Source of the DNA: Sulfitobacter sp. 20_GPM-1509m
Lineage (GTDB): Bacteria > Pseudomonadota > Alphaproteobacteria > Rhodobacterales > Rhodobacteraceae
Direction of reading: 5' to 3'
DNA length: 64,000 nucleotides
Assembly (NCBI RefSeq): GCF_000620505.1
Contig: NZ_KK211144.1
Location: 6,781-70,780 of the forward strand
In this document: piece after piece, positions 59,376 to 62,829 of the stretch
Layout of the letters: each line of letters starts with the position of its first letter
Numbering within the stretch: position 1 is the first letter of the stretch
Program-made: the position numbers and the translations under genes
The notes under the pieces: generated by a model
Told to the model about the DNA's origin: nothing
What the model saw: only the letters and a program-made list of their open reading frames with translations
The model's database searches: none

Positions 59376-59848
59376 TATTCGACGACACCGCTGACTTTCT
59401 GGCCGCCCTGCCCCCGATGCGGTCGCTGATCGGACTGGATCTGGGCGACAAGACCATTGGCGTGGCGGTTTCCGACACGTTCTGGTCCGTGGCTTCGCCG
59501 CTGGAAACCGTGCGGCGCAAGAAATTCGGGCTGGATGCCGCCCGCCTGCAAGAGATCATCGCGCATAGATCGGTCGGTGGGATCGTTCTGGGCCTGCCGC
59601 GCAACATGGACGGCTCGGAAGGGCCGCGTTGTCAGTCGACCCGCGCCTTTGCCCGCAATTTCGAAAAGCTGTGGGATGGCCCCGTGACCTTCTGGGACGA
59701 ACGCCTGTCCACCGTCGCCGCCGAGCGCGCGCTGCTTGAGGCGGATACGACACGCAAACGTCGCTCGGAGGTGATCGACCACGTGGCGGCGGCCTATATT
59801 CTCCAAGGAATGCTGGACCGTTTGCGCGTATTGCGCGCGGCAAGCTGA
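59372..59848 (+). CDS. ruvX: Holliday junction resolvase-like RuvX/YqgF
   Basis: 158 aa from the ATG at 59372. RNase H-like fold: L-I-G-L-D-L-G-D-K-T-I-G-V-A-V-S-D (Asp23 catalytic), G-I-V-L-G-L-P-R-N-M-D-G, and F-W-D-E-R-L-S-T-V-A-A-E with the second acidic residue. The protein processes the 5' end of pre-16S rRNA and is essential in E. coli. Translationally coupled to ccmI. Confidence 0.93.
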   Translation: MIFDDTADFLAALPPMRSLIGLDLGDKTIGVAVSDTFWSVASPLETVRRKKFGLDAARLQEIIAHRSVGGIVLGLPRNMDGSEGPRCQSTRAFARNFEKLWDGPVTFWDERLSTVAAERALLEADTTRKRRSEVIDHVAAAYILQGMLDRLRVLRAAS

Positions 59849-59857
59849 GGACACCCC

Positions 59858-60091
59858 ATGACCGAACCTGTCTGGACCCGGAACGAGATCGAAAGCCCCT
59901 GCGTGCGCATCTGCGTGGTGCACCCCGAGACACGCCTGTGCACAGGCTGTGCGCGCTCCATCGACGAAATCGGTCGCTGGTCGCGGATGACCCCCGAGGA
60001 ACGCACAGCGATCATGGCCGAGCTGCCGAACCGGGAGGTTGCGCCGAAAGGTCGGCGCGGCGGACGTGCGGCGCGGTTGAAGCGGAATTAG
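59858..60091 (+). CDS. DUF1289 zinc-ribbon-like protein
   Basis: 77 aa. Four cysteines C15, C19, C28 and C31 in S-P-C-x-x-x-C and L-C-x-G-C-x-R-S-x-D-E-I, then W-S-x-M-T-P-E-E-R and a basic R/K-rich tail (P-K-G-R-R-G-G-R). This is the DUF1289 layout, probably a small metal-binding protein. Nine bases after ruvX, so co-transcribed. Confidence 0.88.
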   Translation: MTEPVWTRNEIESPCVRICVVHPETRLCTGCARSIDEIGRWSRMTPEERTAIMAELPNREVAPKGRRGGRAARLKRN

Positions 60092-60137
60092 CCCCGGGCT
60101 TGATTTCGATCCCGTGTTTGCATAGATAACAGGCTGC

Positions 60138-60193
60138 GAGGACGACCTCCCCCATCGGGAAAATATCCGGGACGACCCGGCCTTCAGATGGAG
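60138..60193 (+). promoter_or_regulatory. Candidate guanidine-II (mini-ykkC) riboswitch
   Basis: Two hairpins with identical ACGA tetraloops: P1 GAGG-ACGA-CCTC (60138-60149) and P2 CCGGG-ACGA-CCCGG (60167-60180), separated by 17 nt. The ACGR loop pair is the defining feature of the guanidine-II class, where two loops dock and bind guanidinium. The 3' arm of P1 and the following CCATC (60147-60156) can instead pair with GATGGAG (60187-60193), which includes the Shine-Dalgarno. That fits ligand-dependent release of translation. Consensus known from literature; the pairings are read from this sequence. Confidence 0.82.
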
Positions 60194-60199
60194 AAGATC

Positions 60200-60619
60200 A
60201 TGCGCACCACCCCGGACCGTATTCGCCACGCAATCAGCTTTGAAGTGATCGGCCTTCTGCTGGTCATTCCCTTGGGCGCGATTGGCTTTGGCATGGACGC
60301 CCAGCATATCGGCGTTATCGCCATCCTTGCCGCGACCTTGGCGACCCTGTGGAATTACGTCTATAACCTGCTGTTCGACCGCGCCTTGAAACGCCTGCGG
60401 GGCAGCGTGCACAAGACCGTAGTCATACGGATCGTCCATGCGCTGATGTTCGAGCTGGGCTTGCTGCTGGTCACCCTTCCGATGATAGCACTCTATCTGG
60501 GTATCGGACTGTGGCAGGCGCTGGTGATGGATGTGGCCTTTGTCGTGTTCTACCTGGTCTATGCCTTTGCCTTCAACTGGGCTTACGACCAGATCTTTCC
60601 GCTGCCTGAAACGGCGTGA
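60200..60619 (+). CDS. PACE family efflux transporter, candidate guanidinium exporter
   Basis: 139 aa from the ATG at 60200 (GGAG at 60190-60193); an ATG four codons upstream lies on the RBS itself. Four membrane helices in two bacterial transmembrane pair repeats. R-x-R-H-A-x-x-F-E15 at the start matches the proton-coupling Glu15 of AceI, the founding member. W-N-Y-V-Y-N-x-x-F-D is the second hallmark. PACE proteins export chlorhexidine, acriflavine and small diamines. Here the leader carries two guanidine-II hairpins, so guanidinium is the likely natural substrate (inference). Confidence 0.9.
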   Translation: MRTTPDRIRHAISFEVIGLLLVIPLGAIGFGMDAQHIGVIAILAATLATLWNYVYNLLFDRALKRLRGSVHKTVVIRIVHALMFELGLLLVTLPMIALYLGIGLWQALVMDVAFVVFYLVYAFAFNWAYDQIFPLPETA

Positions 60620-60623
60620 TCCC

Positions 60624-60664
60624 GGCAGGCGGGGCGGATCTTACGCGATTTCCGCCCTGCCTTT
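60624..60664 (+). terminator. Hairpin after the PACE gene
   Basis: A GGGCGGA/TCCGCCC stem (60632-60638 with 60651-60657) can extend via GGCA/TGCC (60624-60627 with 60658-60661) past a bulge, then TTTG. It sits between the convergent PACE and TauE/SafE genes. Confidence 0.5.
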
Positions 60665-60671
60665 GCAGATT

Positions 60672-61493
60672 TCAGTAGCCCAAAGCCTTGCGCAGCATGT
60701 TCAGCGCGACCAGCACCAGGAACACGGCAAAGACCCGCTTCAGAGGCTTGGGGTCCATCGCATGGGCCAGCTTCACGCCCCAAGGCGCTGTGATCAGCGT
60801 CATGGCGATGATGATGCCAAAAGCGACAAAGTTCACGGCCCCCACCGTCAGCGGCGGCACCGGCATGGTCATGTCAACGAACAGGAACCCGATCACTGAC
60901 GGCACGGCGATCAGCAGGCCAAAGCCCGCAGCGGTTGCCACAGCGCGGTGGATCGGCACGTTGTGCAGGCTCATCAGCGGCACGCCAAAGCTGCCGCCGC
61001 CGATGCCCATCAGCACCGACAAAAACCCCACAGCCGGCGAATAGGCCCAGCGTTTCGGCCCCTTGGGCATCTCCTCGCCCAGCCGCCAATGCGCGCGGCC
61101 AAAGCCCATGTAGAGCCCGACGATCAGCGCCAAAAAGCCAAAGATCCCCTGCAACGTCGACGAACGCAGTTGCGACACGGCCAGCATCCCCAGAACCGCG
61201 CCGATCACGATTCCCGGCGCCCAGCCGCGCAGGATCGTCCAGTCGACAGCGCCTTTCTTGTTGTGGCTGTGGACCGACCGCAGCGAGGTGACGATGATCG
61301 TCGCCAGCGAGGTGGCCAGACACATCTGCATCAATTGCGGCCCGTCATAGCCAAGCGTATGAAATGCATAAAAGAATGCAGGCACCAGAACGATGCCCCC
61401 ACCGACGCCCAACAGGCCCGCCAGAACGCCCGCAAAGGCCCCAATGATCATCAGCATGATCAGCATTTCCAGCAAAAGCATGGTGTCCGGCAT
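60672..61493 (-). CDS. TauE/SafE family permease
   Basis: 273 aa, about eight membrane helices in two repeats. Family core G-x-x-A-G-L-L-G-V-G-G-G-[IV]-V-L-V-P (~22-38) and the second-half M-G-I-G-G-G-S-F-G-V-P-L (~157-168). Putative anion or sulfonate exporter with unknown substrate. Distinct from the TauE/SafE gene at 28021. Convergent with the PACE gene and divergent from the Bcr/CflA gene. Confidence 0.9.
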   Translation of the reverse strand: MPDTMLLLEMLIMLMIIGAFAGVLAGLLGVGGGIVLVPAFFYAFHTLGYDGPQLMQMCLATSLATIIVTSLRSVHSHNKKGAVDWTILRGWAPGIVIGAVLGMLAVSQLRSSTLQGIFGFLALIVGLYMGFGRAHWRLGEEMPKGPKRWAYSPAVGFLSVLMGIGGGSFGVPLMSLHNVPIHRAVATAAGFGLLIAVPSVIGFLFVDMTMPVPPLTVGAVNFVAFGIIIAMTLITAPWGVKLAHAMDPKPLKRVFAVFLVLVALNMLRKALGY

Positions 61494-61650
61494 CTTGTCT
61501 GTCCCATTTGGTGTGTTTGCGCACAGGTAAATCGCAGCTGGCGCGCAGCCACAAGTTCAAAGCCAGCCTTGGCATTCAGAAAACACGGGCGTATGTCCAT
61601 GCTGCAATGCGGCAGGGCCGCGCCAAACCCTTTCATTGACGGAGAGACCG

Positions 61651-62829
61651 ATGTTGCGCATCGCACTAGTACTGGGACTGTTGGTCATGATCGGGCCGTT
61701 CGCGATCGACATGTATCTGCCCGCAATGCCCGATATCGCCGCCGATTTCGGTGTCGACGAACCTGCGGTCCAGATGACTTTGACCGCGTATTTCCTGTCC
61801 CTGGGTGTGGCGCAGCTGGTCTATGGGCCGCTGTCCGACCAGACGGGCCGCCGCCTGCCGGTGTTCATGGGGCTCGGCGTGTTCTTCATCGGGTCGGTCG
61901 GCGCCACGTTGGCCGGGTCGGTCGAGGCGCTGGCCGGATGGCGTGCCGTGCAGGGGCTGGGCGGGGCTGCGATGATGGTCATGCCCCGCGCCATCGTGCG
62001 CGATCTGCACACCGGGAACGAGGCCACGCGGCTGATGGCGATGGTCATGCTGGTGATGTCCGTGTCGCCCATGCTGGCGCCGCTGGCAGGCAGCTTGGTG
62101 ATCTCGCTGGGGTCCTGGCGCGCGGTTTTTGCGGTGCTGGCCTGTGCTGCGGCAATTGCCGCTGTGGTGATGGGCGTGTCGCTGGGCGAAACCCTTCCGC
62201 CCGAAAAACGCACGCCGGTCCGGGTAAAGACGTTGATCCAGAACGCAGGCATCCTGTTTCGGGATCGCGGGTTCATGGGGCTGACGATGATCGGCGGCTT
62301 TGGCATGGCCAGCTTCTTTGTCTTCATCGCCTCGGCCCCCTTTGTCTATGTGCAGGAATTCGGCCTGACGCCCACACAATTCTCGCTGGCCTTCGCGGTC
62401 AACGCCATCGGCTTCTTCTCGGCCTCGCAGATGGCCGCCCCCTTGGGCGAGCGGTTCGGGATGCGCCCGCTGGTGCGGATGGGTGTGACCGGGTTCACGT
62501 TCTTCGTGTTGCTGTTGTTGCTGGTCGTGGCCTCGGGCTTTCAGAACCTGCCGGTCGTGATCGCCGGATTGTTCTGCGCGAACGCCTGTCTGGGCGTGGT
62601 GATCCCCACAACAATGGTGCTGGCGCTGGATGCACATGGCGAGCGCGCAGGGCTGGCGTCGTCGCTGGGTGGCACCTTGCAGATGCTGGCAGGCGGGCTG
62701 ATGATTGCAGCCACGGGGCCGTTCTTTGACGGCACGGTCCTGCCGATGCTGGCGGCGATTGCGATATGTGGCGTGGCAGCGATGGGCTTTACCCTGTTCA
62801 CCCTGCCCCGCCGCGTGCGCGTGACGTAA
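61651..62829 (+). CDS. Bcr/CflA family drug resistance transporter (MFS)
   Basis: 392 aa from the ATG at 61651 (CGGAGAG upstream). Twelve membrane helices. Bcr hallmarks: F-A-I-D-M-Y-L-P-A-[ML]-P near ~18-28, G-P-L-S-D-x-x-G-R-R (~60-69, MFS motif A) and R-A-V-Q-G-L-G-G-A (~98). Exports drugs such as bicyclomycin or sulfonamides, and in some cases L-cysteine. Substrate not determinable. Confidence 0.92.
   Translation: MLRIALVLGLLVMIGPFAIDMYLPAMPDIAADFGVDEPAVQMTLTAYFLSLGVAQLVYGPLSDQTGRRLPVFMGLGVFFIGSVGATLAGSVEALAGWRAVQGLGGAAMMVMPRAIVRDLHTGNEATRLMAMVMLVMSVSPMLAPLAGSLVISLGSWRAVFAVLACAAAIAAVVMGVSLGETLPPEKRTPVRVKTLIQNAGILFRDRGFMGLTMIGGFGMASFFVFIASAPFVYVQEFGLTPTQFSLAFAVNAIGFFSASQMAAPLGERFGMRPLVRMGVTGFTFFVLLLLLVVASGFQNLPVVIAGLFCANACLGVVIPTTMVLALDAHGERAGLASSLGGTLQMLAGGLMIAATGPFFDGTVLPMLAAIAICGVAAMGFTLFTLPRRVRVT

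Follow-up and report, generated by a model that had tools for sequence, protein, structure and literature searches.

Guanidine-II riboswitches are already known upstream of SMR and carboxylase genes (PMC12186494), and published models of this class describe a probable translational ON switch (PMC12186494, PMC9094411), with a putative anti-Shine-Dalgarno placed in the linker (PMC9094411). In the arrangement found with sugE/gdx, paired ACGR hairpins lie just before the start codon of an exporter gene. The locus described here shares the RNA family, the paired hairpins, their position, and the downstream exporter, and may share the translational mode of action as well. However, the gene is of the PACE rather than the SMR family, and the P1 stem is reduced to a 4-bp GAGG/CCUC core, which is also found before some Gdx-type genes. 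Non-SMR transporters under guanidine control have likewise been described for guanidine-IV riboswitches, located before MATE and PnuC genes whose products are proposed to be new guanidine exporters (PMC7736828), but these involve another RNA class and other transporter families, and the term PACE is absent from the main text of that paper. In the open-access literature searched, no statement on guanidine-II control of PACE genes was found; supplementary gene tables may list the association. The characterized PACE proteins AceI of Acinetobacter and PA2880 of Pseudomonas belong to the same four-helix family as the protein described here. Transport of short-chain diamines, chlorhexidine, and dyes has been reported for PACE proteins, and their natural substrate is debated, short-chain diamines having been proposed (PMC9045395). 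A guanidine sensor before a PACE gene offers a direct and testable answer to the substrate question for one subfamily.

Guanidine-II aptamer and PACE gene of the window

The window, a stretch of 64,000 nt from Sulfitobacter sp. 20_GPM-1509m, contains at 60134-60180 on the plus strand a match to the guanidine-II family (mini-ykkC, RF01068), obtained with cmscan at 37.0 bits against a gathering threshold of 32 (E 8.7e-4). No other Rfam family reached gathering within the window. A preliminary description had proposed a guanidine-II riboswitch ahead of a PACE gene on the basis of two hairpins spaced by 17 nt. Both are present, P1 (GAGG-ACGA-CCTC) at 60138-60149 and P2 (CCGGG-ACGA-CCCGG) at 60167-60180, separated by a 17-nt linker at 60150-60166, all on the plus strand, where each hairpin sequence occurs once in the window. 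The RNA in this leader matches the guanidine-II family, and the proposal is supported by the above-threshold covariance-model match together with the conservation of the leader in relatives, where both ACGR loops are kept before related PACE genes. The distance from the hairpins to the Shine-Dalgarno, previously given as 10 nt, measures 9 nt: the GGAG motif is located at 60190-60193 (+), with a spacing of 6 nt to the start codon ATG (60200), and 19 nt separate the end of the aptamer (60180) from this codon. No second RF01068 match was reported among the 150 of 868 first-look candidates scored in the genome, nor was a guanidine-I riboswitch matched in this genome or a guanidine-III riboswitch in 11 genomes.

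The downstream gene (60200-60619, +) encodes a PACE (BTP, PF05232) transporter of 139 aa, matching Pfam BTP at 1.1e-47 and NCBIfam PACE_transport at 141 bits (cut-off 80). Unlike AceI and PA2880, it falls under the cut-offs of the AceI equivalog model (NF033663, 96.5 vs 180 bits) and of the PCE model (131.5 vs 165 bits), has a riboswitch leader, and lacks a divergent LysR gene. The start is best placed at 60200 because MRT/MRS is conserved in relatives, so the membrane glutamate is numbered E15, in agreement with the earlier reading of a PACE-type gene with Glu15 intact; a longer ORF from 60188 would place the Shine-Dalgarno within the gene. The predicted structure (39 sequences, mean pLDDT 88.7) comprises four helices, with this glutamate in helix 1. 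Residues E15, D60, H80, E85, and D111 appear to match five important residues of PA2880 (PMC9045395; the mapping is ours). Across riboswitch-linked proteins, E15, D60, R77, H80, and E85 are invariant (89 of 89 rows compared), and D111 is D in 79 rows and E in 10. The largest differences from LysR-linked proteins occur at S13, A44, G26, F30, and K72, with S13, F30, K72, and Y118 commoner in the riboswitch-linked rows. Solved structures gave no sequence match up to E 1 and no fold match to the model at E 0.001 or better. Homology to SMR proteins was found neither by family model (Pfam BTP only) nor by sequence or fold among solved structures; by these comparisons, Gdx and PACE appear unrelated, and an exchange between them would be convergent. 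The gene is flanked on one side by a DUF1289 gene (59858-60091) and on the other by a TauE gene of the opposite strand, and a Bcr/CflA-type MFS efflux gene lies two genes downstream, at 61636-62829. Among the matches listed, the nearest named PACE locus is that of Pseudosulfitobacter pseudonitzschiae, with 94% amino-acid identity.

Since both hairpins are short and GC-rich, and one terminator-like site lies over P2 on the minus strand, they might be a chance occurrence or an unrelated conserved leader element such as a terminator or a protein site. Against this, two GGACGR hairpins with stems of at least 4 were present in 47 of 83 PACE leaders (160 nt) of the window's family and in 0 of 16,600 dinucleotide-shuffled copies, which rules out chance hairpins; on the coding strand, no terminator was detected in 59800-60800. 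When the window was tiled, 6 of 3,192 tiles qualified for a hairpin pair on the plus strand and none on the minus strand, and all six (starts 60021-60121) cover the PACE-leader site. With the covariance-model match above threshold, and with a pattern that the survey found conserved across several orders rather than lost among orthologues, such an origin is scarcely credible.

Distribution of riboswitch-linked PACE genes

PACE genes over the cut-off were found in 12 of 61 relatives searched (13 genes). Eleven of their leaders carry two hairpins, one of these with a 3-bp P2 stem, a further leader (L012) combines a clear hairpin with an imperfect one, and that of G009 has none, the riboswitch of this genome preceding an SMR gene instead. 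In the family of the window (taken from the named relatives to be Rhodobacteraceae; 345 genomes, one per genus), 79 genomes contained 83 PACE genes over the cut-off (set A), whose leaders showed two hairpins in 47 cases, one in 10, and none in 26, the GGACG requirement having dropped two chance hairpins (G112, G230). A second, imperfect hairpin was recognized by eye in nine of the ten one-hairpin leaders and was absent in L158. The leaders L118 (G288) and L158 (G241), with a single recognizable hairpin or a broken ACG loop, possibly represent stages of riboswitch loss. Of the 26 family loci without hairpins, 20 were compared with Rfam, and nothing reached gathering.

Among the 80 best named relatives, drawn from at least 578 confirmed candidates (set B), two hairpins were present in 75 leaders, one in 1, and none in 4, or 75, 2, and 3 under a looser rule. 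The four hairpin-less loci belong to Psychrobacter (three) and Aliiroseovarius (one), and the hairpin-bearing ones include Rhodobacteraceae, roseobacters, Rhizobium, Agrobacterium, Microvirga, Devosia, and Nitratireductor. When 20 named loci, 16 of them with two hairpins, were scanned, RF01068 reached gathering in 12. In a phylum-wide sample of 348 genomes, 90 rows exceeded the cut-off; six were already in set A, two partial genes (G687:C1, G618:C1) were omitted, and of the 82 retained (set C) only three had two hairpins and one had a single hairpin, all four from the window's class. The absence of hairpins from 26 of 83 family and 78 of 82 phylum-wide PACE genes indicates that PACE is not a guanidine-only family. 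As sets A, B, and C overlap, the 255 loci correspond to 250 distinct genes, with two hairpins in 123, one in 11, and none in 116.

A tree built from 205 PACE proteins (131 columns, many unresolved forks, 30 of the 80 set B rows kept) placed all 89 riboswitch-linked rows on one side of a branch with SH-aLRT 88, together with 18 others, this branch having been chosen afterwards as the best separator of riboswitch rows. Presence or absence of the riboswitch required 12 changes on the tree, suggesting that the link has probably been gained or lost several times. One genome (G346) contains three PACE genes (L082, L141, L160), all of them preceded by a separate guanidine-II leader with two hairpins. 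Plasmid-borne riboswitch-PACE units were also observed (L377 on pSMR1-1, L372 on pTHAF187b_a, and probably L117); the unit may be mobile. An RF01068 hit is included in a list of Mesorhizobium small RNAs (PMC5596092).

Other PACE genes may be under a different type of control. In the phylum-wide sample, 63 of 82 PACE genes have a divergent LysR gene upstream; the counts are 3 of 83 in the family, none among the 80 named relatives of set B, and 7 of 10 for plasmid PACE loci (set D, chosen from 180 matching records), six of those seven LysR genes being the annotated divergent neighbours from which the LysR profile was built. No locus among the 255 (250 distinct genes) combines a divergent LysR gene with a hairpin; the upstream sequence covered spanned 500-600 nt at many loci and as much as 1,500 nt at others, so distant regulators would be missed. 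A LysR-like frame also precedes the hairpin-bearing PACE genes of L020 and L021, there on the same strand rather than divergent. In four hairpin-less loci (L068, L076, L088, L134), an inverted repeat, ATCTTTCT-GAAAGAT with variants, lies just before the start; it resembles a repressor operator, perhaps of TetR type, and would then represent a third type of PACE regulation.

Exchange with Gdx-type SMR genes

The 345 family genomes contain at least 66 guanidine-II matches, a lower bound because the stricter filters used in RF01068 searches over more than 40 genomes lose weak matches; G005, with two hairpin-bearing PACE leaders and no RF01068 match reported, is such a missed case. Comparison of riboswitch and PACE coordinates assigned 37 of these matches to PACE genes. 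A further 26 precede SMR genes, two precede UAAP1-like (urea amidolyase associated protein) genes identified by eye, and one, probably a chance match, precedes a tuf-like gene. The position three residues after the helix-1 glutamate is tryptophan in all 26 riboswitch-linked SMR proteins, the residue of Gdx proteins, glycine or alanine occupying this position in Qac proteins (PMC7695847).

The SMR complement of genomes with a riboswitch-linked PACE gene is of another kind. Such genomes number 54 (44 with two hairpins, 10 with one), and an SMR match is absent in seven. The 50 strong SMR matches carry glycine (40), alanine (7), phenylalanine (1), or tryptophan (2) at the diagnostic position, so that among the strong matches read a Gdx-type SMR occurs in only 2 of the 54 genomes; 11 weak matches (24 bits or less), including the sole match of G075, lie outside this count. 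In G228, a riboswitch-PACE gene coexists with a W-type SMR gene that has no riboswitch, and in G326 the riboswitch precedes the W-type SMR gene and one hairpin is found at PACE. The only SMR protein of the window's genome is nearest to EmrE, below model cut-offs. By comparison, the riboswitch-linked SMR protein of G031 is nearest to the SugE model (below cut-off) and to PDB entries 8vxu and 6wk5, the latter of which we take to be Gdx-Clo. Viewed from the other side, a riboswitch-linked Gdx gene is present in 8 of the 79 PACE-bearing genomes, seven of which lack hairpins at PACE, in contrast to 53 of the 71 genomes without riboswitch-Gdx, where PACE hairpins are present (Fisher p 0.001); these counts and the p value are not independent owing to shared descent, and some of the PACE genes without hairpins come from other branches.

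A class-wide survey of guanidine-II matches (31 rows, 29 loci read) identified 12 W-type, one G-type, and one F-type SMR genes, two PACE genes, and 13 others. The last group comprises ten UAAP1-like genes recognized by eye, two of them tested (L288, L289, L296, L300-L302, L305, L307, L309, L314), an SMR gene near a contig end (L291), and the loci L294 and L295, in which the RNA precedes genes for a small protein of membrane-like character and for a protein of 135 aa, respectively. L295 gave no NCBIfam match, and both genes are possible further guanidine-related genes.

The location of a guanidine-sensing RNA directly before a PACE gene suggests that the pump exports guanidinium in place of the usual exporter, and the exchange with Gdx-type SMR genes, together with the lack of divergent LysR genes, provides a comparative signature that extends beyond a single window. 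From these patterns we infer ligand binding, induction by the ligand, and guanidinium as the PACE substrate, and we consider it quite likely that guanidinium activates the translation of a PACE pump which takes the place of Gdx. The pump, presumably a proton-coupled exporter, would remove guanidinium, the task performed elsewhere by Gdx proteins of the SMR family. Chlorhexidine is a bisbiguanide, and for the broader proposal we lean, if only slightly, towards a PACE subfamily, widespread in Alphaproteobacteria, that forms a second, unrelated family of dedicated guanidinium exporters and has been swapped with Gdx behind a shared riboswitch. In that case, guanidinium export would be native within PACE, and chlorhexidine efflux by other PACE pumps would be a by-product of recognizing guanidinium-like groups, parallel to Gdx and Qac within the SMR family. 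If so, guanidinium export would have evolved convergently, marine, soil, and plant-associated alphaproteobacteria without Gdx would have a means of meeting guanidine stress, and guanidine exposure could induce a biocide-type pump.

The riboswitch could instead sense guanidinium as a proxy, the main substrate of the pump being a co-arising compound such as diamines, substituted guanidines (agmatine or methylguanidine), or biguanides. The reported movement of short-chain diamines, chlorhexidine, and dyes by PACE proteins (PMC9045395) fits this explanation, as does the transport of substituted guanidinium ions by Gdx-Clo (PMC7695847). However, the same RNA stands before both Gdx-type (26) and PACE (37) genes of the at least 66 family matches, and the retention of a Gdx-type SMR in just 2 of 54 riboswitch-PACE genomes is what a swap of function predicts, so we regard a proxy signal as rather unlikely and guanidinium itself as the favoured substrate.

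Leader anatomy and predicted switching

In the proposed mechanism, the guanidine-II riboswitch at the start of the mRNA would respond to rising guanidinium by switching on PACE translation. With the ligand absent, the 3' arm of P1 and the linker (CCUCC...CCAUC) would sequester the Shine-Dalgarno region by base pairing; binding of guanidinium would let P1 and P2 form and kiss through their ACGR loops, freeing the ribosome site. The leaders compared below were de-duplicated to 120 for pair statistics, 119 for pairing energies, and 122 for AT content and promoter signals. The four P1 pairs have identical letters in 120, 120, 118, and 117 of the 120 leaders, which had been selected for GGACGR and four pairs, and CCTCC is found at the 3' arm of P1 in 88 of them. 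By its letters, this arm (CCTC, then CC) can act as a candidate anti-Shine-Dalgarno, and a strand that both completes the aptamer stem and masks the Shine-Dalgarno would be consistent with so constant a P1. The inner pairs of P2 are nearly invariant in these leaders, themselves selected for pairing. The letters of its outer pair 5 vary, with pairing in 86 of 120 leaders where independent columns would give 62.3. The distance from the P2 loop to the start codon is 25-33 nt in 112 of 119 leaders.

The short and nearly invariant P1, compared with the longer P1 of the Rfam consensus, could also mark a guanidine-II variant whose ligand has shifted to a close guanidine relative matching the PACE substrate. 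This is improbable given that the ACGR loops are retained (in leaders that had been selected for them) and that a short P1 also precedes Gdx-type genes (e.g., L004, L009), and guanidinium remains the preferred ligand.

The preliminary description had suggested that an alternative pairing of 60147-60156 with 60187-60193 would hide the ribosome-binding site. Part of it, 60152-60156 with 60187-60191, is found in the minimum-energy fold of the window leader, in which P1 is open (-24.5 kcal/mol), and the fold containing P1 and P2 (-24.1 kcal/mol) is weaker by 0.4 kcal/mol, a gap within model error; the folding energy of the whole leader was, however, no better than that of shuffles (z 0.11). Across 119 leaders, the anti-Shine-Dalgarno pairing had a mean z of -0.91 relative to shuffled sequences, with z below -1 in 55, and an energy of -12.27 kcal/mol with own partners vs -11.67 kcal/mol with swapped ones. 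Considering the small fold gap, the z of 0.11, and the weak cross-leader test, the proposed switching draws chiefly on what is known of the class.

Upstream of the aptamer, a -35-like hexamer TTGATT (60100-60105, +) is placed 17 nt before a -10-like hexamer TAGATA (60123-60128, +), the latter coinciding with an AT peak across leaders; a stricter sigma-70 scan reported no promoter at 60100-60128. In the 122 distinct leaders, a TTGACA/TATAAT-like signal with 17-nt spacing occurs with 8-9 nt between the -10 element and P1, scoring 4.42 and 4.14 of 12 matches at offsets of 9 and 8 nt, respectively, against a background of 2.49 (sd 0.18), and AT content reaches its maximum (0.82) at -13 relative to P1. 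Because this promoter-like signal is fixed relative to P1, transcription should begin almost at P1; the start is predicted about 2-3 nt before it, which would place the aptamer near the 5' end of the mRNA.
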